The notes below the pieces were generated by a model. That model worked only from the letters and a program-made list of their open reading frames with translations, was not told the origin of the DNA and ran no database searches. From the NCBI GenBank assembly GCA_025617745.1, contig CM046861.1:12610516-12674515 (forward strand): DNA of 64,000 bases, written 5' to 3'. The position numbers and the translations under genes are program-made. This DNA is from Heliocidaris erythrogramma (Eukaryota; Echinodermata; Echinoidea; Camarodonta; Echinometridae). This document shows positions 7,465 to 61,825 of this stretch, one piece after another. How positions within the stretch are numbered: position 1 is the first letter of the stretch; the number at the start of each line of letters is the position of its first letter.

Positions 7465-7590
7465 TTTCAACTCAAACTCCTTGTGATCCCAACCCCTGCC
7501 TGAACGGAGGTGGTTGTTCGACAAGAGGTGATACTGCGTACACGTGCAACTGTCCTTCGACCCATGTTGGAACCAACTGTGAGACTCTTG
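7465..7590 (+). CDS. EGF-like domain exon, unit 1
   Basis: A polypyrimidine-TTTCAG acceptor is followed by a 126-bp exon, phase 1-1, closed by a GTAAGC donor. The product 'TPCDPNPCLNGGGCST' ... 'CNCPSTHVGTNCETLG' is a Notch/fibropellin-type EGF-like domain with all six cysteines. Such domains fold outside the cell and mediate matrix or receptor contacts. It would splice in frame to any other phase-1 EGF or HYR exon. It is nearly identical to the exons at 9721 and 22002. Confidence 0.85.
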
Positions 7591-11283: not shown

Positions 11284-14200
11284 TTAGGTTTTGTAAGGAG
11301 CCAATAAAAATTTCTTTAGATTTCTCTTAAAGATTGAGAGTGAAGAGGATTTTTCCAAATCATGGTGCAAAGTATTCCAAAGTTTAGGACCTTCAAAAAT
11401 AAATGTTTTTTGTGCAGAAAATGTTCTCAAAAATGGTAAATGAAATTCATCCGACTGTCTGGTGGGATATTTGTGAATTGTACGATTTTTTAGAAACATA
11501 TCGTGAAACGCAGATGGTAGAGTACCACAATTGTATTTGTACATAAATTCACCAAGATGAAATAAGTACAGATCTTTAATTTTTAGGATGTTATGTTCAA
11601 GGAAAAGAGAATCCGTATGGGCACGTATAGGAGCATTACAAATTATACGAATGACTTTCTTTTGTAGTAGTAAAACTCTTTCCAGCAGTGTTTGATGACT
11701 GTTTCCCCAAACCAAAAGACCATAGTTTAAATATGGTAAAATAAGAGATGAGTAAAGCATAAGTAAAGATGCTTGAGGAAGGTGTGATTTAAGTCTGTTA
11801 ATGATACCGATATTGCGAGAGATAATTTTACAAATATTTTCGATGTGGATTTTCCAGGAAAGTTTACTGTCAATCAAAACACCTAAAAATTTGGTTTGAG
11901 AGACTTGCTCAAGAGGGATATTGTCAAAAACAATATCAGTAGGTAATGATGCTAAGGAGTTACTAAACAATATATAATTCGTCTTCAGTAGATTCAATGA
12001 TAATTTATTAGCCCTTATCCATTCTAATATGTTACGCAGCTCTCTATTGATTACATCGACAAGAACATTTGGATCACTGTGAGAAAAAAATAAATTGGTG
12101 TCATCTGCAAATAAGATGAATGACAAGGAATCGGATGATTTATGAAAATCATTTATATAAAGTATAAACAATAATGGGCCTAACAGGCTTCCTTGAGGGA
12201 CGCCACAAGAAATATCTTTAAAATCTGATGCTTGCTCGTTTAAGGAAACAAATTGTTTTCTGTTAGAAAGGTAGCTCCTGAACCACTCCAAGGCCTTTCC
12301 ACGGACACCAATATGAGCAAGTTTATAAAGTAAAATATCATGATTTATCGTATCAAAGGCCTTGGAGAAGTCCAGGAATATACCTACTGTGTGAGAAGAC
12401 GAGTCAATTGAATGGGCAACTTTCTCAACAAAAGACATCAAAGCATGAACAGTACTATGTTTCTCCCTAAAACCAAACTGGAAATTAGAGAGGATATCAT
12501 TTTTTTTAAGGAAAGAACTCATTCGAGTAAACACTATCTTTTCCAAAATTTTGGAAAAAGAAGATAGTAACGAGATTGGCCGATAATTACCTACTTCAAG
12601 TTTGTCACCTTTTTTGAATAAGGGAATAATTTTTGCTAGTTTCATGGAATTGGGAAATTTACCATGCGTCAATGATAAATTAAAAATATGGACCAAAGGA
12701 TCTACAATAACAGGAATAATGGCTTTCAACATTACGTTATTAATTCCATCAAAACCGGAACTTTTTTTATTCTGTAAGTTGGATACAATATTAATGACTT
12801 CTTGCCTATTCGTAGGAAAAAGAAAAATAGAATTTGGATTAACAGGGCCTAAAAAATCACTATAATTTATGTTTGATGGGGGAATATTTTTAGAAAGATT
12901 GCTGCCGATTGACGAAAAGTAAGTATTAAAGATATTCGCTATATCTTTGGAATCTTCGATAATTTCATGGTTATACATGATTTTGTTTATTTCAGATCTT
13001 TTATCTGTCAAATTCATCGCTTGTTTAATAATTTTCCAGGTATTTTGCATATCGTGTTTGAACATTTCCAAACGATTTACGAAGTATTTTCTTTTTTCAA
13101 GGCGAATGATTTGAGTCAATGTGTTTCTGTAGGATGTATACTTTTCCTTTGATTTTTCAGTACCTTTTATTTTATATTTATAAAAGAGATTATTCTTCCG
13201 ATTAATTAAGCGTAGTATGGATTTAGAAATCCATGGGAGCTTAGGTGTTTTCTTATAGTTGGTTTTGATTTTTTGTTTCGGCATATTAATATCCAATTGA
13301 TCGGTCAATATTAAGGAAAAAGTTTCATATGAACTGTTAATGTCTTCATTAGTATATATACACGACCAATCAAAGTTTTCAAGATTAATAGCAAGACGTG
13401 CTAGGCTTTCGGCATTAACTTTACGTCTATATATTGAAGAATTATTTCTGTTAATAGATTGACCTAGTGGATAAAACATTGCAATAGGATAATGATCAGT
13501 TATGTCAGATAAAATAATATAAGAATCAGGATGTGGAATAACGTTCGAAAAAATATTATCAATTAAAGTAGCAGATGCATTAGCAACACGCGTTGGCTTA
13601 GAAACGAGCGGCAAGCAAGAAGCAGATAAAATTAATTCAAGAAAGTCTTGAGAAATATTGTTATGTTCATGGTTCAATAAATCTATATTAAAATCTCCCA
13701 TCAAGAAGAAGTCTTTATTGTCAAAATTGACGTCTCTTAACAAATTGGAAAAATATTGTAAGAATTCTTGAGCATTTGAGTTGGGAGATCTATAAATAAC
13801 TCCGGCAATGATATTCTTATTACCAGGAATCACAATTTCAATAAAAAGGGATTCAACAATTGTATTAGAAACTGAGATTTCATCCAAGATAGTGTATTTA
13901 AATGATTTGAGGATGTAGAGAGCAACTCCCCCACCAACTCGATTTTGTCTATTTTTGTTGATGAAGTCATAATCTTTTATAAGGAATGGGTGGTTTGAAT
14001 CGTAATTAAGCCAAGTTTCTGTGAGGCCAATCAGCGTAAAGGGGCTTGGCATAGGTTTATCTACGAGTGAAAGAAGGTCATCAAAATGCTTGTTCAAACT
14101 TCTGATATTTAAATGAAGGATGGAAAATGTATCATTCTGAAAATCTTTTGAAACCTTTGAAAATTGATTGATGGTTATATAGTTAGTAGTTCCACGTTTG

Positions 14201-14397
14201 ACAGGGTCATCTAAATCAAAATCGAACTCCAGATTTGCAGCTGAAGCGTTAATGTTATCTATGATAAGATTATCATAAGAATTAGCAGAAGTATCAGACA
14301 CATCATCAGACTGAATAGGTCTATGTAAATCAAAGAAATCGTCATCACTAAGCCTATGAAATGGCAGCGATTGCCTATCGTCAGAGTTAAACATCAT
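11284..14397 (-). CDS. Endonuclease-reverse transcriptase of non-LTR retrotransposon (1,037 residues, intact)
   Basis: Residues about 90-305 form an APE-type endonuclease: 'ILHLNIRSL', 'LTETWL', 'GGGVALYI', 'GVIYRSPNS', 'FFLMGDFNIDLL' and 'SDITDHYPI' near residue 300. Residues about 585-850 form the reverse transcriptase: 'NYRPISLLSSFSKILEK', 'FGFREKHST', 'FLDFSKAFDTINH', 'CGVPQGSLLGPLLFILYIND' and the catalytic 'ILFADDTNLF' (FADD at 763-766). A C-terminal block with 'HKYPTR' follows. It would nick target DNA and copy element RNA in place. No stop or frameshift interrupts it, so it could be functional. The chosen Met is the first in frame; the acidic N-terminal 85 residues show no PHD finger or zinc knuckle. 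Confidence 0.93.
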   Translation of the reverse strand: MMFNSDDRQSLPFHRLSDDDFFDLHRPIQSDDVSDTSANSYDNLIIDNINASAANLEFDFDLDDPVKRGTTNYITINQFSKVSKDFQNDTFSILHLNIRSLNKHFDDLLSLVDKPMPSPFTLIGLTETWLNYDSNHPFLIKDYDFINKNRQNRVGGGVALYILKSFKYTILDEISVSNTIVESLFIEIVIPGNKNIIAGVIYRSPNSNAQEFLQYFSNLLRDVNFDNKDFFLMGDFNIDLLNHEHNNISQDFLELILSASCLPLVSKPTRVANASATLIDNIFSNVIPHPDSYIILSDITDHYPIAMFYPLGQSINRNNSSIYRRKVNAESLARLAINLENFDWSCIYTNEDINSSYETFSLILTDQLDINMPKQKIKTNYKKTPKLPWISKSILRLINRKNNLFYKYKIKGTEKSKEKYTSYRNTLTQIIRLEKRKYFVNRLEMFKHDMQNTWKIIKQAMNLTDKRSEINKIMYNHEIIEDSKDIANIFNTYFSSIGSNLSKNIPPSNINYSDFLGPVNPNSIFLFPTNRQEVINIVSNLQNKKSSGFDGINNVMLKAIIPVIVDPLVHIFNLSLTHGKFPNSMKLAKIIPLFKKGDKLEVGNYRPISLLSSFSKILEKIVFTRMSSFLKKNDILSNFQFGFREKHSTVHALMSFVEKVAHSIDSSSHTVGIFLDFSKAFDTINHDILLYKLAHIGVRGKALEWFRSYLSNRKQFVSLNEQASDFKDISCGVPQGSLLGPLLFILYINDFHKSSDSLSFILFADDTNLFFSHSDPNVLVDVINRELRNILEWIRANKLSLNLLKTNYILFSNSLASLPTDIVFDNIPLEQVSQTKFLGVLIDSKLSWKIHIENICKIISRNIGIINRLKSHLPQASLLMLYSSLILPYLNYGLLVWGNSHQTLLERVLLLQKKVIRIICNAPIRAHTDSLFLEHNILKIKDLYLFHLGEFMYKYNCGTLPSAFHDMFLKNRTIHKYPTRQSDEFHLPFLRTFSAQKTFIFEGPKLWNTLHHDLEKSSSLSIFKRNLKKFLLAPYKT

Positions 14398-17300
14398 CGT
14401 GAGATAAAAAAATACTCCCTCATCATTGACATTTGGCGATAAGGAGAAATACTGTATAAAAGAGGTAATGGCGCTTTATTCGAGAAGAGTAAGGAAAGGA
14501 AGTGTCGATCACATGCAGTAAGAAGAAAAATAAATCGATGGAAATCAAATAGGAGTGGAGGGAAAATGATGACCAACAACAAAAACGAGTAGAGAAAACA
14601 AACATATGATGGGGATGAAAATGAAGAGAAAACATAGTGAATCTCTGTTGGCATAACATACTTAAGGCAATCTAAACGCTGGAACGTCATGTGGCAGAAA
14701 ACAATCAGCAGTGGAGCTAAGAATAACGTACACATTTGAGGAATTTAGATAAAGAGAAAAAAGAACGAAATTGCTAAATCATTGACCATACATAAATACT
14801 AAATTTAGTATAATGAGGAATGTATTAACCTACCAACATTGCAATAATTGATTATAGAAACAACAAAGATAATACAGTGTGTATTAACATTACAGTGGCA
14901 TTTCACTTCTACAAGAAAAGGAAAATCGAATGAGCATGTGTAATATATGTAATGTATGTAACACAGGTTTATCAACGGTATAAATAAAACATCAAGAGGT
15001 AGATAACCAACTCAGTTGAGGAAGATTCAGTGGACCTCCTTCGCGATGCATACAAATGAATACCACTTTGCTCAGTGACAAACCAGTACAGTCACCTAAG
15101 GATAACCCCAAAGCTTTTCAAATCCCATAATGGGAATGCAAATCGCAGGCATCCGCTGTCGTCGGATTTGCCTAACCCAGCAACACACAGTGCATACCAT
15201 GTGCATCTCGACCATGCAATACAATGAGTTGGAAGAAAAGGCGGATTTAAAAAATATAAAGGTGTATTGATGGAAAAAAGAAGAACAATTTGTATAAGCA
15301 CGAAAAAGGTCCACTTCACTTCAAATTCATTTCAACAGGAAATGTGTGTGTGTACATCGTGGGAAATGTGTATGTACATCGTAATCAAATGCCATATACG
15401 AGGCTACCATTCCATTTTGTGAAAAGTACCATTATTAGCATGTTTCTTGATGCAACGATATAAATGAGAAGACATGACTCAGTCAAAGCAAATGAAGTTA
15501 AGCAAACATTGCGTCATAATAATAATTCAGGATGGGAGAAACTGGTTAGCAAATATTTGTATTTGATGTTCATTTCAGCAAAATTTAATCAAGGAATTGA
15601 TTCTTTTTGAAATGGGATACCAATTTGAAGAAAATAGATGTTTATTTGATTTGAGTTATCATATCTTCATCACATACATAAAATCGTGTCATTTTATGAA
15701 GGAAAAAAAAAGAATTTAGCTGACACCAACATCAGTGCCTTACATATTGGCAATGTTAAATTCAGGTGTGAAACAAAATACATGTGTCATTAAGTAATCA
15801 TTCAAGTTGAAGAAATTCAAACGTGTATGGAAACCAACAGTAATGGCATTCACTTCAACGGATAACACAATTGAATATGCATTTATAAAGAGCACAGGTC
15901 TATCCGTCCAATAGAATTTTAAAAAAAAAATATATGGGATTGTGAAAACCTTCGAAAATGGGAAATTAATGAATATTCAATGAACCATTGTCACAATGTA
16001 TTCAACAACATGGAAGTTTGCCTAAATATAACCATCACACCCACCCCAAAGCCTTTAAAATTCCATATAGTCAGAATGCAGCTGTGGGCACCAGGCGCTG
16101 CCATGTCAGGCAAACATCACTGCCCGCCAAACGTTACGATCACGTTAGCAACACCTAGTAACCTAGCAACACACAGTATATATGCACTACGCAACTTGAC
16201 CATGTAATACAGTAAGTTGGAACAAAAGGCGGATGCAAACGATCTGCAGAGTATGACAAAGTAATTGGTAAACAGAATTTCTTTAAAATTTTGGCGCAAA
16301 AAAAAGTCACTAACCCTGAATACAAGACTGGGTAAAACAAAAACATATATGGATAAACACTGGTCTAAATCAAGGGGGAAATGCCTAAGGAAAAAGGGTT
16401 AGGAAGACAAAATATACAGTCATGGCAGTATACAGTATGTCACTTCTAAGGAAAGCTTGAAAAAAAATTGGAAAAAACCCACAAGGAATCAAATGATCAA
16501 TACTGTTATACTCCAAAGCACAATTATCATATTAGGTCATAGACATCTGTCGTGTCTGCATACAATTATTGAGATCCAAGACTGTGTGAACACTCAGTTT
16601 GTCAAAAAGTGCAGAATAGGGGGAGAAAGATTTAAAATCCCAAATCTTGGGGTTATTCTTTCAATAGCCAAAAATACAGAGTTGATAAGTTACAATGTAG
16701 TTAGTTGTCCTGTATTTAAAGAAAAATATATTTAAAAAATAAAGAAAATTTGAAGTATGCATGATCTTGCAGTATATATAGGAAGACCAAATTTTGCCAT
16801 GTTAGCCAAGATAAATGGATAACTCTTATTAGAGAGTAAGATTTCTTAAAGTGAAAAATAATGTATGCCTATATTACGGCCACTAGCAAAATGTAGAAAA
16901 TCGAAATTATGTGGATGCAGTAGGCCAATATACAACTGGCTATCATGTCCTATCTACTGAATGTTGTTATTGAAATTACATAATCTTTTTATCTTATGCA
17001 TGACCCTTGTTTCACCACTTGTAGGGAAATCTAGGGAAGGAATGAGTGCTAGCATAACACAACATATTAACTGTGACAAATAAAAAGAGAGAGAGAGAGA
17101 GAAAAAAAAGTTTCAATCAGGAATTGGGGAAAAGTGACCATAATAGGGCTACTGTAAAAAATTCCCTAAAAGACATGAAACGTGTCAGATTATGCATTCC
17201 ACTAAGAAAGCAAGAATAATCCTACAAGAAAGTAAAGGTTTCTCAAAAATAAAAAAAAAATCACAAGAAGAAAATATTTGGGGGAAGGAATACAAAATCA

Positions 17301-19356: not shown

Positions 19357-19483
19357 TTTCAACTCAAACTCCTTGTGATCCCAACCCCTGCCTGAACGGA
19401 GGTGGTTGTTCGACAAGAGGTGATACTGCGTACACATGCAACTGTCCTTCAAACCCATGTTGGAACCAACTGTGAGACTCTTG
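19357..19483 (+). pseudogene. EGF-like exon of unit 3, frameshifted by one inserted base
   Basis: Acceptor and GTAAGC donor are intact and the sequence matches the other unit exons, but it is 127 bp instead of 126. An extra A in 'ccttcaaacccatg' (compare 'ccttcgacccatg') shifts the frame after the fifth cysteine and brings in a TGA at the place of the sixth. If included in a transcript this exon would truncate the protein, so it is either skipped or marks a dead copy. Confidence 0.85.
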
Positions 19484-22127: not shown

Positions 22128-22504
22128 GTAAGCTTGTATATATGGTATGGTCGATTGTGTGTTATTAACATTCCTGTCCAGTCTGACCTTGCCTGCTTTG
22201 TTTTTGTTTCGACCGTTGGAACCGACAGCTGCTTTTACGATCACTCTCTCCGCATCTCTCTCCTTATGTGTGTGTGCGATGTCCAAGCCTGTTGCAGTCT
22301 ACAGACTAGCATCTTTTGAAATTCATGTTTACAAACATTCTGGAGCTCACAATCAACATGTATTATGTCGCCCAGGAAGCGGTGTTTCCAGTGTCTCGAA
22401 GATGGAGCTTGAGGATAATGGCGGGATATAGACACTGACTCATTTTTGTCTTTTTTTAGTTTATAAGGGTGCAGGCGTGTGTGTCTGTGTGTATTTAAGG
22501 TGTC

Positions 22505-24127
22505 ATGAACTTTCTTGTATTTTATTTTTTAATTTCGTGTTCATGTTCTTGCGGGGTTGCGTCTAGTTTTGAATATGTTACGCTAAAATCATTTAAACGC
22601 TTAAAATACTTTCACTCCCGAATTTTGTATTATCAGAACTCTGTGGCCACCTTTCAAACTACGTTATTTCAGACAAATAATCAAATATTTTATCGTCTTT
22701 TCCTATCTGGTGACGTAGAAACTAATCCCGGTCCAAACTACAAATTTCCTTGCGGTAAATGTGATAAACCTGTAAAAAACAACCAACATGGCCTATTGTG
22801 TTCCACCTGCCAAAAGTGGTACCATACTAAATGTCTTGAAATCTCTCTCTCTGAGTATACCAGGTTATATCATAACCCCAATGAAAATTGGGTCTGTTTG
22901 ACGTGCTCATTACCACCTTTTTGTGACTCCCTTTTTACTCAATCCTGTGAAGATATTCAACCCTCTCAACCAATTTTACCCCCTATCCCTGAAGTTAGAA
23001 TACAGAATACTATTGATGAAAGCGCTTTATATGAATCATTTAATGATACTTTTAATGGTAAAGGGTTGCATCTTGTTCATTTGAATGTTAGATCAATTCT
23101 GTTTAAAATACCTGAACTACGACTCCTTTTCTCCCAAAATAGAATCTCGGTAATTGCAATCACTGAAACGTGGTTAAACTCTTCCGTGAACGATGAAGAA
23201 GTTTGTATCGATGGGTATTGTATTTTAAGACGAGACCGTGTAGGAGAACATGGTGGTGGAGTCTGTCTTTATATTAGAAATGATATTGCATTTAACGTAC
23301 GAGAAGATCTTACACAAAATGATATTGAATCGTTATGGATTGACATCCTATTACCCCATACAAAACCCATTACTCTAGGTGTTGTGTACAGACCCCCTAC
23401 AGATCATTATTTTATTGAATATCTTACTGACACCTTGGATAAATTAAGAAAAGATGATGAGGTTATAATTTTAGGGGACATGAATATCTGCCTTTTGCAG
23501 CAGTCTTCATTATCCAAAAAATACAAGAATATTTTGAATTTAAATGGTTTGAGTCAACTTATAACTAAACCCACTCGAACAACATCGGCCACTTCATCAT
23601 TAATAGACCATGTAATCAGCAGTAAAGAAGAAAATATTTGTCAAAGTGGTGTTATTGAAATTGCTCTAAGTGATCATTTTTTAACCTACTGCTCTAGGAA
23701 GCTAATAAGACCTGTATTCAAACAGCATAGAAATGTAAATATTCGGTGTATGAGAAACTATTGTATAGATGATTTTAATAATGTTTTATCTCGAGTCAAT
23801 TGGTCTGACATATTAGAATGTAAAGAAGTAAATACTGCGTGGTCAATTTTCAAAAATACTTTCATGTCTATAGTTGATAAATGTGCTCCATTAAAACAAG
23901 TAAGAATTAAGCAAAGAACCGATAAGTGGATGAATGCTGAAATTATTTCGTTAATAAGACAAAGAAATATAGCTTTTAAAAGAATGAAAAAGGATTGTGG
24001 TAATTTAGAATTAGAAAAGAAATATAAACTTTTACGTAATTTGGTGCAAAGAAAAGTGAGACAGGCTAAAGATGAATACTTCCAAAATCAAATTGATGAG
24101 CATAAAAATGATTCTAAAAAGTTGTAG
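22505..24127 (+). pseudogene. N-terminal part of CR1-like polyprotein: signal-like start, 2A-like peptide, PHD finger, APE endonuclease
   Basis: 540 residues from the first Met to an in-frame TAG at 24125; the same frame reopens directly after, so the stop is a nonsense change. Residues 1-20 are hydrophobic and Cys/Ser-rich, like a signal peptide. Residues 68-77 are 'SGDVETNPGP', a canonical 2A motif. Residues 83-134 hold a PHD finger with C83, C86, C99, C102, H107, C110, C131 and C134. Residues about 188-395 form the endonuclease ('LHLVHLNVRS', 'ITETWL', 'GGGVCLYIR', 'GVVYRPP', 'VIILGDMNICLL', 'SLIDHV', 'ALSDHFLTY'). The PHD region in such elements is thought to bind chromatin or act as an ORF1-type domain; that is family knowledge. 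Confidence 0.88.
22706..22735 (+). other. 2A-like ribosome-skipping motif
   Basis: The codons read S-G-D-V-E-T-N-P-G-P, matching the D-(V/I)-E-x-N-P-G-P core. In characterised 2A peptides the ribosome fails to join the last Gly (22730-22732) to Pro (22733-22735) and continues, releasing the upstream peptide. Here that would free a 76-residue N-terminal piece from the PHD-endonuclease-reverse transcriptase part. Such 2A sequences are known in sea urchin non-LTR elements. Upstream context 'IFYRLFL' is hydrophobic, as is common before active 2A cores. Activity of this copy is not shown. Confidence 0.85.
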
Positions 24128-25874
24128 AAGAATCTGAAAGATTTAGGTTGTAAAAACAAACAAAAGAATATTAAAGAGAATGTTATTAATATCCAAGGGG
24201 AGTTATGTCATGATAATATGAGGATAGCGAACGAATTTAACAATTATTTCACAACTGTGGCAGAAAAATTAGCTAGTAATCTGCCAGATAGCAACACAAA
24301 TGAATTTGGAACGGACAGTGTTAAATTACAAAAATTATACGACACTAAGGGTGTGTCGAAAGGTTGTTTTCTTTTTTCTCCTGTCAAAGAAAAGTTTGTT
24401 TTAGATGAATTAAATAAGTTGAAAATATCAAAAAGTACCGGGCTTGACTTGGTACCTGCCAGATTTTTGAAGGATGGAGCTAAATATTTGTATACACCTT
24501 TAACTTACATTATTAACTTATCTATCTCAACCTCCACCTTCCCTGATGAAATGAAAATTGCAAAAGTAACACCCTTTATAAAAAGAAAGATAAAACTAAT
24601 GTTAGCAATTATAGACCGATTAGCGTTTTAAGTATAGTCTCGAAGGTCCTAGAGAAATGTGTGTATGCCCAATTAGAGAACTACTTTCAAGAAAACAAAA
24701 TAATATACGAATTTCAATCTGGTTTTAGAAATGGTTATTCCACTGAAACTTGTCTTATTCACCTGTTAGATTTTGTGAGGAACGAAATTTCCCAAGGACG
24801 TTTTGTTGGGATGGTTCTTCTTGACTTGCAAAAAGCCTTCGATACCGTTAACCATAATATACTGTTAAGTAAATTAGAAGTAATGGGTTTAAATTCTGCA
24901 TGTGTGCAATGGTTTAGGTCTTACTTGACCAATCGTCATCAAGTTGTCTCGTTGCAAATTGTACTCTCCGATTCTATGCCCATAAGATGCGGAGTTCCCA
25001 GGGGAGCATATTAGGTCCTATTCTTTTCATGTGCTACATTAATGATATGTGTGTTTGTGTCAACGACAGTAAATTACTTTTATATGCGGATGACAGTGTG
25101 TTACTATATTCTGGTACTGATCCTAAGCTGATCGGGGAAAAACTTAGCTTAGAATTATCAAACTGTGTTAATTGGATGACAGCAAATAAGCTTAGCTTAC
25201 ATATTGGTAAAACCGAAAGTATTTTGTTTTGTTCGCGGGGTAGGCTGAAGTATACTGATGATTTCAATATAAGTTATAACAATCAACTCATTAAGAGACA
25301 GGATTCTGTGAAGTATTTAGGACTAAATATAGCTAGTGATCTTTCTTGCTCTAGTTTGGTTGACAGTATTGTCAAAAAAGCTAATGCTCGTCTAAAATTC
25401 TTGTATCGTTATCAAAATTGCATGAACTTAAAATCAAGACGCATTTAAAGTTTTTCCTTAATACAATGTTTATTTGATTATGCTAATGCGGCATGGTACT
25501 GCAGTCTAGGCAAGGTGGATCAAAACAAGTTAAAATAATTCAAAATAAGATTGTAAGATTTATCAATCACTTACCACCAAGAACACACATTGTGAAGAGT
25601 GAACTTGAAACAGCTGGTCTTCTTCATGTAAACCTTAGATCACAACAACTTTTAATTCACCATGTACATCAGATTTTTTACTCTAATGCAGATCACTATA
25701 TTTCAAATAATTTTACTCGCTCTTCAAGTGTTCATAGGCATGACACTAGAAATAGTCAATTTAATTTCGTAGTGCCTAAGCGGAAAGGTAAAATTGGAAA
25801 TTCTTTTATTTTAACGGTATTCTTGTCTGGAATTCCCTCCCAAATCATGTTAAGTCAGTTAAGAATTTGTTACA
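24128..25874 (+). pseudogene. Reverse transcriptase part of the CR1-like element, multiply broken
   Basis: Continues the polyprotein after the TAG at 24125. Reading passes through a frameshift near 24590 (A-rich run before 'NYRPISV'), another near 24990-25000 at the 'CGVP' turn, a TAA at 25446, and at least one more frameshift near 25500. Recognisable blocks: 'STGLDLVPARFLKDGA', 'FQSGFRNGYSTETCL', 'LLDLQKAFDTVNH', 'GSILGPILFMCYINDM', the catalytic 'LLYADDSVLLY' and 'VKYLGLNIASDL'. The C-terminus is interrupted by the MITE at 25881. It cannot encode an active enzyme. Confidence 0.88.
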
Positions 25875-36944: not shown

Positions 36945-38159
36945 TAATGCCTATTAATCTGATCATAGTTTATTTTCTCCTTTTTTTCTAATCTGGTTAT
37001 TTCTCTAAGTTAAGTAGACTATATTGCTCTCCCACTGTGAGCATCTTACTCTCTTCATACGTTCCTCTCATATAAGAATTGTTTAGTATCACAATATTGC
37101 ATTTTCATTGTTGCTCCTTATGCTTGTTGAGTTGATAATGTGCGCTTCTTTTAACATGGGAGTGGTTTCATTTTGTTTTTATCAAACCCTTGCTAAACAG
37201 TGCATCCTTGTGAGCCTGATCCAAGTCAAAATGAGGTACATTGTCTAGTGCTCCCATTTTTCCGGGGTCAACTGTGAAATGAAAGGTTTGAAGACTACAA
37301 AAAAATTGTATTTGCACTGCAAGGACTTCCGATTGACTATACCCAATGTACACTTCTTTACGGTCCACTGTAATCAATTAACCTATGTGTTGAACCATTA
37401 ACACAGTTGATTAACACAGTTTGAAGATTGTATTCTTTGTTCATGTTAAATTCTCTCGTCACAAATTGTAGCTACGCATGTGTTGTATGTGCATGTTAAT
37501 GTTAACATCTGTATATGGTTATTCATGTCCAATTATCTCACCTTGTAATTATAATCAAAGACAGAATATGCTGCATGTACTGTGTATTGGGTAGTCAGAA
37601 TTGCTAGCCAATGTGCTTTTAGAGTACGATAGAATTGTAAAAGAAATCTTGCTTAGATTTGATTTTGATGCTGTAAATATTGAGATACTCAGAATGACGA
37701 TGTGATCTATTTTTTGTATGGTGTCTGAAGATCTCTGTGTGTGCTAGAGGGTGTGTGTGTGTGTGTGTGTGACATCGAACAAAGAAAACAATGGGTCATA
37801 GGTATTAATTGTCAACAATTGGTGAGGTTTATTCCGGCAATGAATTTTGTGACGCAATTCAATAGTGGAGTCATCGTTGAAATTCGAAAAATAGAAAACA
37901 TAGATGTGTGTGCGTGTGTGTTTGTGTGTGTGTATGTATTTCTACCTGTCTGTTGTTAGTTTGTTTGAATGTCTTGGATTGCTTGAGTTTTGGAGGTCAC
38001 ACGAAATAACTGTACATAAATGCTTTTAAATGTAACTGGAATGAGAGTCTCCTTGAATTTAAGACCTGAAAGCTAAATGCATTCTCAAACAGACAACGAA
38101 TTCAAAGCAAAGACTTTGGGTTCACTTATTACCTCACATCTATATAGTGACCCCATCAG

Positions 38160-38416
38160 TGGACAACATCCCTCCGGTCGTAACAAACTATCTCCGGACA
38201 TCATCCGCACTGTACCGGCAGGAATGATGGCCCTATTGGTCTCCTGGACCGAACCTACAGCTACCGACAACGTCGGTATTCCGTCGCTGTTGTATAACGT
38301 ACCATTGGGGACGAATTTCCCTGCTGATACTATAACCAGTGTGCAGTATAACACAACAGATCTTTTAGGGAACACGGACACCTCTTGCTCGTTTACGGTA
38401 GAGGTAACTACGGAAG
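38160..38416 (+). pseudogene. HYR (hyalin repeat) domain exon, copy 1, with two lesions
   Basis: After an AG acceptor the exon reads 'DNIPPVVTN', then, one frame over, 'SPDIIRTVPAGMMALLVSWT', 'EPTATDNVGIPSL', 'TSVQYNTTDLLGNTDTSCSF' and 'TVEVTTEG', ending at a GTAGGC donor. This is a HYR domain, the adhesive immunoglobulin-like module of hyalin and related echinoderm proteins. The expected 'NCPPD' block is damaged: the codon for the first cysteine is TAT, and one base is missing just after it, so the exon is 257 bp instead of 258. Taken literally it cannot be read through. An acceptor inside the exon, skipping or pseudogene status would explain it. Confidence 0.75.
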
Positions 38417-38869
38417 GTAGGCCCGGTCCACCGATTCAATGCGATATTTGCAACTTTCGATCTCTCGCTTATACCGATTTAATCATAGTTGTCTCGTAAA
38501 GCCAAATTTCAAATATGTTGATTCTTTAGTTTGATTATTTACCACCTTGTTTTGCAAAGTATATATACCTTTGTTTTAATGAACTGTGCCACTGCCTGTT
38601 CCTACGTGTGACGTACTCCGTAGCTAACATATCCTTTCTTTCTTCAGTTTTGTTTGATGTGGAGGTTTGTTGTTTAACTAAAAGAATTATTGTAGGAACG
38701 CGGAACATGGTTGCAGAGATTTCAAACTACCCCCACCTGTTTCTGTTTGTACCCCGACAAATGCCAGTTTATATGTTATTCTTTATTTTCATTTTTTTGG
38801 TTTAGTAGATGCTCTCCCTATATGTGCAAAATTTTTGGGTAAAGACTTACTTCTAGTACATTATTTTTA

Positions 38870-39316: not shown

Positions 39317-40532
39317 TAATGCCTATTAATCTGATCATAGTTTATTTTCTCCTTTTTTTCTAATCTGGTTATTTCTCTAAGTTAAGTAGACTATATTGCT
39401 CTCCCACTGTGAGCATCTTACTCTCTTCATACGTTCCTCTCATATAAGAATTGTTTAGTATCACAATATTGCATTTTCATTGTTGCTCCTTATGCTTGTT
39501 GAGTTGATAATGTGCGCTTCTTTTAACATGGGAGTGGTTTCATTTTGTTTTTATCAAACCCTTGCTAAACAGTGCATCCTTGTGAGCCTGATCCAAGTCA
39601 AAATGAGGTACATTGTCTAGTGCTCCCATTTTTCCGGGGTCAACTGTGAAATGAAAGGTTTGAAGACTACAAAAAAATTGTATTTGCACTGCAAGGACTT
39701 CCGATTGACTATACCCAATGTACACTTCTTTACGGTCCACTGTAATCAATTAACCTATGTGTTGAACCATTAACACAGTTGATTAACACAGTTTGAAGAT
39801 TGTATTCTTTGTTCATGTTAAATTCTCTCGTCACAAATTGTAGCTACGCATGTGTTGTATGTGCATGTTAATGTTAACATCTGTATATGGTTATTCATGT
39901 CCAATTATCTCACCTTGTAATTATAATCAAAGACAGAATATGCTGCATGTACTGTGTATTGGGTAGTCAGAATTGCTAGCCAATGTGCTTTTAGAGTACG
40001 ATAGAATTGTAAAAGAAATCTTGCTTAGATTTGATTTTGATGCTGTAAATATTGAGATACTCAGAATGACGATGTGATCTATTTTTTGTATGGTGTCTGA
40101 AGATCTCTGTGTGTGCTAGAGGGTGTGTGTGTGTGTGTGTGTGACATCGAACAAAGAAAACAATGGGTCATAGGTATTAATTGTCAACAATTGGTGAGGT
40201 TTATTCCGGCAATGAATTTTGTGACGCAATTCAATAGTGGAGTCATCGGTTGAAATTCGAAAAATAGAAAACATAGATGTGTGTGCGTGTGTGTTTGTGT
40301 GTGTGTATGTATTTCTACCTGTCTGTTGTTAGTTTGTTTGAATGTCTTGGATTGCTTGAGTTTTGGAGGTCACACGAAATAACTGTACATAAATGCTTTT
40401 AAATGTAACTGGAATGAGAGTCTCCTTGAATTTAAGACCTGAAAGCTAAATGCATTCTCAAACAGACAACGAATTCAAAGCAAAGACTTTGGGTTCACTT
40501 ATTACCTCACATCTATATAGTGACCCCATCAG

Positions 40533-40789
40533 TGGACAACATCCCTCCGGTCGTAACAAACTATCTCCGGACATCATCCGCACTGTACCGGCAGGAATGA
40601 TGGCCCTATTGGTCTCCTGGACCGAACCTACAGCTACCGACAACGTCGGTATTCCGTCGCTGTTGTATAACGTACCATTGGGGACGAATTTCCCTGCTGA
40701 TACTATAACCAGTGTGCAGTATAACACAACAGATCTTTTAGGGAACACGGACACCTCTTGCTCGTTTACGGTAGAGGTAACTACGGAAG
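40533..40789 (+). pseudogene. HYR domain exon, copy 2, same lesions
   Basis: Identical in sequence to copy 1 across the exon, including the TAT in place of the first Cys codon and the missing base after it, with the same GTAGGC donor. It carries the derived residues 'LLYNVPLGTNFPADTITSVQ' shared only with copy 1. Confidence 0.75.
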
Positions 40790-41242
40790 GTAGGCCCGGT
40801 CCACCGATTCAATGCGATATTTGCAACTTTCGATCTCTCGCTTATACCGATTTAATCATAGTTGTCTCGTAAAGCCAAATTTCAAATATGTTGATTCTTT
40901 AGTTTGATTATTTACCACCTTGTTTTGCAAAGTATATATACCTTTGTTTTAATGAACTGTGCCACTGCCTGTTCCTACGTGTGACGTACTCCGTAGCTAA
41001 CATATCCTTTCTTTCTTCAGTTTTGTTTGATGTGGAGGTTTGTTGTTTAACTAAAAGAATTATTGTAGGAACGCGGAACATGGTTGCAGAGATTTCAAAC
41101 TACCCCCACCTGTTTCTGTTTGTACCCCGACAAATGCCAGTTTATATGTTATTCTTTATTTTCATTTTTTTGGTTTAGTAGATGCTCTCCCTATATGTGC
41201 AAAATTTTTGGGTAAAGACTTACTTCTAGTACATTATTTTTA

Positions 41243-41689: not shown

Positions 41690-42905
41690 TAATGCCTATT
41701 AATCTGATCATAGTTTATTTTCTCCTTTTTTTCTAATCTGGTTATTTCTCTAAGTTAAGTAGACTATATTGCTCTCCCACTGTGAGCATCTTACTCTCTT
41801 CATACGTTCCTCTCATATAAGAATTGTTTAGTATCACAATATTGCATTTTCATTGTTGCTCCTTATGCTTGTTGAGTTGATAATGTGCGCTTCTTTTAAC
41901 ATGGGAGTGGTTTCATTTTGTTTTTATCAAACCCTTGCTAAACAGTGCATCCTTGTGAGCCTGATCCAAGTCAAAATGAGGTACATTGTCTAGTGCTCCC
42001 ATTTTTCCGGGGTCAACTGTGAAATGAAAGGTTTGAAGACTACAAAAAAATTGTATTTGCACTGCAAGGACTTCCGATTGACTATACCCAATGTACACTT
42101 CTTTACGGTCCACTGTAATCAATTAACCTATGTGTTGAACCATTAACACAGTTGATTAACACAGTTTGAAGATTGTATTCTTTGTTCATGTTAAATTCTC
42201 TCGTCACAAATTGTAGCTACGCATGTGTTGTATGTGCATGTTAATGTTAACATCTGTATATGGTTATTCATGTCCAATTATCTCACCTTGTAATTATAAT
42301 CAAAGACAGAATATGCTGCATGTACTGTGTATTGGGTAGTCAGAATTGCTAGCCAATGTGCTTTTAGAGTACGATAGAATTGTAAAAGAAATCTTGCTTA
42401 GATTTGATTTTGATGCTGTAAATATTGAGATACTCAGAATGACGATGTGATCTATTTTTTGTATGGTGTCTGAAGATCTCTGTGTGTGCTAGAGGGTGTG
42501 TGTGTGTGTGTGTGTGACATCGAACAAAGAAAACAATGGGTCATAGGTATTAATTGTCAACAATTGGTGAGGTTTATTCCGGCAATGAATTTTGTGACGC
42601 AATTCAATAGTGGAGTCATCGGTTGAAATTCGAAAAATAGAAAACATAGATGTGTGTGCGTGTGTGTTTGTGTGTGTGTATGTATTTCTACCTGTCTGTT
42701 GTTAGTTTGTTTGAATGTCTTGGATTGCTTGAGTTTTGGAGGTCACACGAAATAACTGTACATAAATGCTTTTAAATGTAACTGGAATGAGAGTCTCCTT
42801 GAATTTAAGACCTGAAAGCTAAATGCATTCTCAAACAGACAACGAATTCAAAGCAAAGACTTTGGGTTCACTTATTACCTCACATCTATATAGTGACCCC
42901 ATCAG

Positions 42906-43162
42906 TGGACAACATCCCTCCGGTCGTAACAAACTATCTCCGGACATCATCCGCACTGTACCGGCAGGAATGATGGCCCTATTGGTCTCCTGGACCGAAC
43001 CTACAGCTACCGACAACGTCGGTATTCCATCGCTGATATCTAACGTACCATCGGGGACGAATTTCCCTGCTGATACTACAACCAGTGTGCAGTATACCGC
43101 AACAGATCTTTCAGGGAACACGGACACCTCTTGCTCGTTTACGGTAGAGGTAACTACGGAAG
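42906..43162 (+). pseudogene. HYR domain exon, copy 3, same lesions but closer to consensus
   Basis: Has the same TAT and single-base deletion as the other copies. Between 43028 and 43111 it differs from them at nine positions, giving 'SLISNVPSGTNFPADTTTSV' and 'YTATDLSGNTDTSCSF', which fits the HYR consensus ('Y.A.D.SGN...C.F.V') better than copies 1 and 2. It is probably the older version. Confidence 0.75.
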
Positions 43163-43249
43163 GTAGGCCCGGTCCACCGATTCAATGCGATATTTGCAAC
43201 TTTCGATCTTTCGCTTATACCGATTTAATCATAGTTGTCTCGTAAAGCC

Positions 43250-57550: not shown

Positions 57551-57673
57551 TCCAATCATGGCCCTGTGATAGTTCCCCCTGTGAGAATGGCGGGATATGT
57601 TTTGATAGCAGTGATGGTTTACTGTATATTTGCCAGTGTCCCGTTGACAACCTTCAACCAAACTGTGGTGAAG
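57551..57673 (+). CDS. EGF-like domain exon
   Basis: 123-bp, phase 1-1 exon between CTTGTAG and GTATAG. It encodes 'WPCDSSPCENGGICFDSSDG' ... 'YICQCPVDNLQPNCGEG' with six cysteines. It diverges clearly from the other EGF exons, so it is not part of a recent duplication. It is followed by the exon at 58153 and probably by the Thr-rich exon at 60170 in the same transcript. Confidence 0.82.
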
Positions 57674-58152: not shown

Positions 58153-58260
58153 CTTGCAGTCCTTCACCGTGTCAGAATGGTGGGACGTGTACAGATGTTA
58201 CAAATGGTTACACATGCCAATGCCCTTCAGGATACATAGGAACAGATTGCGATCTCCCAG
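58153..58260 (+). CDS. EGF-like domain exon with transposon-duplicated donor
   Basis: 108-bp, phase 1-1 exon between TTTCCAG and GTATTC, encoding 'CSPSPCQNGGTCTDVTNGYT' and 'CQCPSGYIGTDCDLPG' with six cysteines, close to the Notch-type consensus. The donor site lies in the 8-bp duplication made by a MITE starting five bases into the intron. A second identical donor core lies at the far side of the MITE. Use of the far site would add a stop codon at about 58356. Confidence 0.85.
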
Positions 58261-58265
58261 GTATT

Positions 58266-58388
58266 CATGGGCGCCAATCCTCACAGGAATTCTACTCAAG
58301 TGGGGGGACACCCCATTGTTGCATCCAGGTGTGTCCCCCCCCCCCCTCCCCCACTTGAATAGAATTCCTGTGAGGATTGGCGCCCATG
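58266..58388. mobile_element. Foldback MITE (8-bp target duplication) at a splice donor
   Basis: 123 bp, almost wholly a hairpin: 41-bp ends starting 'CATGGGCGCCAATCCTCACA' match their reverse complement with one mismatch, around a short centre. It is flanked by CAGGTATT at 58258-58265 and 58389-58396. An 8-bp duplication suggests hAT-type mobilisation. No coding capacity. Confidence 0.88.
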
Positions 58389-58396
58389 CAGGTATT

Positions 58397-60169: not shown

Positions 60170-60313
60170 TCATTACAACTCTAGTCATTACTACGCCCAT
60201 AGCAACACCCACTATAACAACAATAACAATAACTCCATCCGACGAGCCGACAACTCCAACCGAAGAGCCGACAACTTCTGTACCCACAGAAGCACCGACA
60301 ACTCCTGTTACAA
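60170..60313 (+). CDS. Thr/Pro-rich linker exon (mucin-like)
   Basis: 144-bp, phase 1-1 open stretch between TCATCTCCAG and GTATAT. It encodes 'VITTLVITTPIATPT', 'ITTITITPSDEPTTPTEEPT' and 'TSVPTEAPTTPVT', about half Thr, with Pro and Glu, and imperfect 'EPTT' repeats. Such stretches are heavily O-glycosylated stalks between EGF, HYR or other modules in surface proteins. The symmetric phase matches the EGF exons upstream, which supports membership in the same gene. Confidence 0.72.
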
Positions 60314-60448: not shown

Positions 60449-60595
60449 ACAATGCAGCAAATTAAACTATAACATGGGGTCCGAAAATGTAAAACATAAT
60501 TATTATTTTTTATGTGTAAATTATATACACATAAAAAATAATAATTATGTTTTACATTTTCGGGCTTCCTTTTATAGTTTAAGTTGTTGCATTGT
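60449..60595. mobile_element. Foldback MITE-like hairpin, 147 bp
   Basis: 'acaatgcagcaaattaaactata' at the left faces 'tatagtttaagttgttgcattgt' at the right (two mismatches). The inner arms 'ccgaaaatgtaaaacataat' are fully complementary across a short AT centre. The mirrored open frames on the two strands come from this palindrome. Confidence 0.75.
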
Positions 60596-61719: not shown

Positions 61720-61825
61720 GCTGAAACCCTTGGCACAGTAAGAGTGGGGGTAACTGCGGAATTACCGCTAACGGATACATGTGCAATTGCCCATAAACCT
61801 ACACGGGAGTATGATGTGAAACAAG
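61720..61825 (+). pseudogene. EGF-like exon relic
   Basis: Reading 'NPWHSKSGGNCGITANGYMC' followed by 'NCP' and, past a TAA, 'TYTG' then 'CETR' shows an EGF module. The second cysteine codon has become TGG, a TAA follows the C-x-C block and a TGA precedes the last cysteine. The donor position reads AGGAAA. Clearly dead. Confidence 0.65.

Follow-up and report, generated by a model that had tools for sequence, protein, structure and literature searches.

An EGF exon in Heliocidaris erythrogramma has, as read from the DNA, a duplicated 5' splice site: a single donor is found in paralogs of the exon that lack a transposable element, and two donors flank a MITE at the present locus. The exon occupies 58153-58260 on the plus strand of the window, the 64,000-nucleotide stretch analyzed here, which is part of the chromosome-size contig C9 of a 1.06-Gb assembly (26 contigs) that served as the genome searched. 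It is 108 nt long, runs from phase 1 to phase 1, has both acceptor and donor intact, and matches the Pfam models EGF (8.2e-10) and hEGF (4.6e-10). We consider it quite probable that cut-and-paste transposition of a MITE into this splice site duplicated the donor, the near one most likely still being spliced.

The MITE copy lies at 58266-58388 and is 123 bp in length. On the plus strand its 41-bp terminal inverted repeats are at 58266-58306, where the first letters are CATGGGCGCCAATCC, and at 58348-58388; the interior between them (58307-58347) contains the pieces of a 13-nt inner inverted repeat, the loop and a C-rich run. An 8-bp direct repeat, CAGGTATT, is perfect on both flanks of the element. 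Its left copy (58258-58265, plus strand) covers −3 to +5 of the near donor, with the exon end at 58260, and its right copy (58389-58396, plus strand) forms the far donor, for which the exon end would be 58391. Both flanks therefore retain C-A-G/G-T-A-T-T (the slash marks the exon end). Repeats and arms are at their maximal length, the adjacent bases being mismatched, and position +6 of the near donor is the first base of the element while position −4 of the far donor is its last. The original prediction that a 123-bp hairpin element separates two copies of one donor core was borne out: the arms are 98% complementary over 41 nt, with one mismatch, and the predicted fold takes in almost the whole element, the 13-nt inner arms included. 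For the element alone the modelled energy is −86.6 kcal/mol, and the computed stability has a z-score of −11.99 against 200 shuffles. A third donor-like site, CCAG/GTGTGT, is present in the element loop (58325-58334, plus strand; exon end would be 58328). Its letters are also found in the family consensus, and intronic family copies in sense orientation could supply cryptic 5' splice sites from it.

The element is one member of a large family. With the outermost 26 bases of the inverted repeat as query, 1,105 ends were found at no more than 2 mismatches (554 and 551 by strand; none with the reversed control), and the exact first 13 bases gave 689 ends genome-wide (control, 1); together these counts indicate about 350-550 copies. 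The elements are short, carry inverted repeats, exist in numerous similar copies and have no long coding frame, which makes them MITEs. A sample of 61 copies was assembled from the window copy, 34 pairs among the matches listed (up to chromosome C3) and 26 of 35 further similar copies, the other 9 being left out; it is biased in that the 34 have two perfect 26-base tips and the 26 are the best matches to the window copy. The sampled copies are 93-148 bp long. A perfect 8-bp duplication flanks 48 of the 61, 55 have one at no more than 1 mismatch, and 6 show at least 2 differences. The 8-bp duplication is thus the rule for the family, and chance repeats are ruled out as the source of the two copies at the exon. 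Three pairs of sampled copies (L019/L020, L030/L031 and L032/L033) have the same target letters and flanks, and L041/L050 nearly so; in each of the three, the two copies are separated by between a few hundred and several thousand bases, and these pairs are local duplications that carried the element with them. The 61 rows are therefore not all independent. The window copy has 98.4% identity to the 61-copy consensus, which suggests that it is fairly young; it ranks 38th, and the mean is 98.3%. Among 20 tips without a listed partner, 19 belonged to short MITEs whose second arm had diverged and one had no second arm; 13 more loci comprised eight short elements, four without a visible second arm and one element of 716 bp. 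The latter (L112, 236-951) is a longer relative of the MITE, flanked by the duplication CAACTGGG and alike at the tips over about 16 bp only, and offers a lead towards the family's source element.

The element is non-autonomous and probably a hAT-type MITE. The family shows the 8-bp target duplication of the hAT superfamily, and it resembles hAT-type MITEs also in its short terminal inverted repeats starting with CA and in its lack of coding capacity. It differs from them in the weakness of its target preference. Elements of the hAT superfamily prefer targets of the form nTnnnnAn. When rows identical in target and flank were dropped and both strands pooled, the 64 distinct targets had T in 40% at position 2 and A in 40% at position 7, with an information of only 0.03 bit; a weak, symmetric preference was seen for C at position 1 and G at position 8 (0.35 bit). 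CAGGTATT itself has neither T at 2 nor A at 7, and, standing at the 56th percentile among these 64, it is an ordinary target.

The state before insertion can be approached through L100 and L101, two paralogs of the exon located on C9. Both are without the element and have a single donor, their ends reading CAAG/GTAACAT; in both alignments (2/2) the end column is that of the near donor and the phase is the same. L101 is 83% identical to the 58153 exon, and L100 is 73% identical over a longer alignment. The shared end column and phase and the single donor support the near donor as the original position. Since the paralog donors are GTAACA and not GTATT, the evidence concerns position and phase, not the exact letters before insertion. 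No near-identical second copy or empty allele was found in the assembly among the best 40 of 250 candidates for a 786-bp query that stops at the left repeat. On the combined evidence of sequence, family and paralogs, the −3 to +5 donor core is copied to both element flanks by the insertion. The initial proposals of a MITE whose 8-bp duplication spans the exon/intron boundary, and of a transposon-made duplicate donor, are supported accordingly, the former by the perfect repeats, the family duplications and the element-free paralogs, and the latter by the single donor at the matching column in L100 and L101.

The course of events was probably as follows. By cut-and-paste, a MITE entered the donor of the EGF exon with a staggered cut at −3 and +5, and gap repair copied the whole −3 to +5 core onto both sides, so that a complete donor core stands on either side of the element. 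The near donor at 58260 is most likely still used, because exon length, phase and exonic context are preserved with it, and the intron would then begin with the 123-bp element plus the spare donor. Use of the far donor would at most be minor and would yield a message with a shifted frame and a stop. That the target duplication repaired an otherwise broken donor may explain why the insertion persists. The locus is a clear natural case of how target duplication can save a splice site from destruction by an insertion, and one in which the register of the cut matters: an 8-bp duplication exactly over −3 to +5 leaves the U1 core on both sides. For 345-553 copies, and on the assumption of roughly 250,000 donors in the genome, 0.08-0.13 insertions are expected in the −3 to +5 register and 0.57-0.91 when any of seven registers is counted, so that one such case per family is unsurprising. 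Many families genome-wide could yield donor pairs, and competition between donors could then be tested in natural settings.

The consequences of donor choice can be read from the frame. With the near donor the exon would be unchanged. With the far donor, 131 bases (58261-58391), which is not a multiple of three, would be added, and the frame would remain open until a TGA at 58356-58358 (plus strand), in agreement with the expectation that the near site keeps the exon and the far one adds about 130 bases with an in-frame stop. As this TGA sits only 33 bases upstream of the far junction, message decay would require further junctions downstream. Use of the loop donor would add 68 bases without an internal stop and shift the downstream frame.

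The strength and accessibility of the donors were modelled. Over −4 to +8 the calculated U1 duplex was −7.5 kcal/mol for the near donor, −8.2 for the far donor and −8.0 for the loop site; over −3 to +6 the near and far donors were equal at −7.2 kcal/mol. Ten sibling EGF donors ranged from −5.2 to −8.8 kcal/mol on sites of 13 to 14 bases, and the joined empty site, which is one base longer, was given −9.1 kcal/mol. Among the 3,710 GT of the window's plus strand, 1.6% were predicted to score at least as high as the near donor and 0.7% at least as high as the far donor. The modelled opening cost in three contexts was 5.37-5.61 kcal/mol for the near donor, 4.01-5.49 for the far donor, 8.4 for the loop site and 1.97-2.88 for the empty site; for the near donor it was 7.1-7.4 kcal/mol when the element was partly transcribed. 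According to the model, the element hinders access to the near and far donors about equally, and the loop site is the hardest to reach. The cheaper opening and better U1 pairing of the empty site suggest that the insertion may not be neutral but may weaken the exon.

These values bear on regulated alternative splicing, in which two or three donors would compete, the hairpin would set the balance and a truncated isoform would arise. We regard it as improbable. The modelled equality of the near and far donors over −3 to +6, the similar strength of the loop site, the very high predicted stability of the hairpin and the ability of the two GGUAUU copies to pair mutually by wobble pairs all speak in its favour. 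However, the near and far opening costs are alike and neither donor is clearly favoured, so that the hairpin was rejected as a switch for one donor and the original prediction that it could hide or expose one rather than the other was not sustained. The wobble pairing was likewise rejected as special, because 62.5% of 200 random duplicated 8-mers gained at least the same energy. Moreover, conservation is lacking, the element being absent from both paralogs seen. It is also unlikely, though somewhat less so, that the 58153 exon is unused within a decayed gene copy and its duplication without consequence. A later EGF-like exon (61725-61820) is decayed, with two in-frame stops, which suggests that the gene may be partly decayed, and the next EGF exon is seen at position 66571 in window numbering (L009). 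Against this, the 58153 exon is intact, acceptor and donor included, and has been kept in the two paralogs.

Could the element together with one repeat be removed as a 131-nt intron (58261-58391), the far CAG/GTATT then acting as donor for the pre-existing intron in a recursive or introner-like manner? An intron of 131 nt would be of workable size. The AG/GT duplication places AG at 58390-58391 with GT after it, an arrangement like that set out for AGGT insertion in PMC3443670. We nevertheless hold this reading to be very doubtful, because pyrimidines make up 41%, and T 18%, of the 17 bases upstream of the far CAG, as against 71-100% and 53-76% at eight EGF-exon acceptors, and because the bases before the far CAG sit within the hairpin arm. 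The acceptor of a Thr-rich candidate exon farther downstream has 65% pyrimidine and 47% T. On this comparison of composition the donor border is fine and the acceptor border poor, whereas an introner would have usable splice sites at both. In the family, AGGT stands in the 8 bases preceding 6 of 689 ends versus 8.8-11.7 expected, with no sign of an intron-making adaptation. Of the five other ends preceded by AGGT (L011-L014 and L016), none resembled an exon end when the six-frame text only was inspected by eye; at L011 and L014 the flanks differ between the sides and AGGT is on one side only. Given the poor far acceptor and the lack of AGGT enrichment, the family was not filed with introners. 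A three-donor cassette (near, loop and far), from which some transcripts lose 58261-58391 alone and then resplice from the regenerated donor, is another highly unlikely arrangement; if true, recursive splicing would have arisen through target duplication in a single step.

The insertion with the near donor retained, which we prefer, is a fresh example of the already described duplication of AGGT sites by transposons. A review on how introns are gained (Yenerall and Zhou 2012, PMC3443670) describes transposons that insert into AGGT and leave the site duplicated on both sides. The model set out there shares with the present case a DNA transposon, AGGT within the target duplication and splice letters copied to both sides. 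It differs in that, before the insertion, AGGT here already looked like a donor in use at the end of an exon, and in that a donor was duplicated, with a poor acceptor at the far AG, rather than an intron being made within an exon. Gozashti et al. 2022 (PMC9860276) describe introners whose splice sites derive from the target duplication; like the present elements these are MITE-like, with terminal inverted repeats and splice-site letters in the duplication, whereas the present family has no AGGT enrichment and its copies as spliced introns are unsupported. Nested donor introns correspond to the [D1,2] type of spliceosomal twin introns (PMC12403724). In that type, a segment is likewise inserted at the donor of another intron and inverted repeats fold near the ends, but the twin introns are without target duplication, and nested excision is unsupported here. 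The exact present geometry was not met in searches of open-licence papers.

Other features surround the exon. Upstream, an EGF-like exon at 57551-57673 (plus strand; phase 1 to phase 1, donor GAAG/GTATAG) shows the six-cysteine EGF pattern by tblastn, and L099 holds a paralogous exon of matching layout. Downstream, the Thr-rich, phase-compatible stretch at 60170-60313 (plus strand) is the candidate next exon, as suggested by reading frame and by acceptor and donor letters. A region of L110 is homologous to it (80-89%), with the acceptor AG not kept; L110 and the window share a TGA just past the candidate donor, so this may instead be the last exon. Near-identical EGF exons repeat at 7482, 9738 and 22019 (part at 19374). 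The repeated exon type also recurs at the L009 position, and a protein-identical copy lies downstream of L101 (L111). Three near-identical frames at 38077-38499, 40450-40872 and 42823-43245 are spaced by 2,373 bases; HYR domains were found in the first and third, the two scanned, and the frames mark a tandem-duplicated HYR plus EGF gene region. By eye, a long AT-rich inverted repeat was noted at about 60484-60563, and long frames like LINE-type reverse transcriptase at 11284-14475 and 22499-25448.
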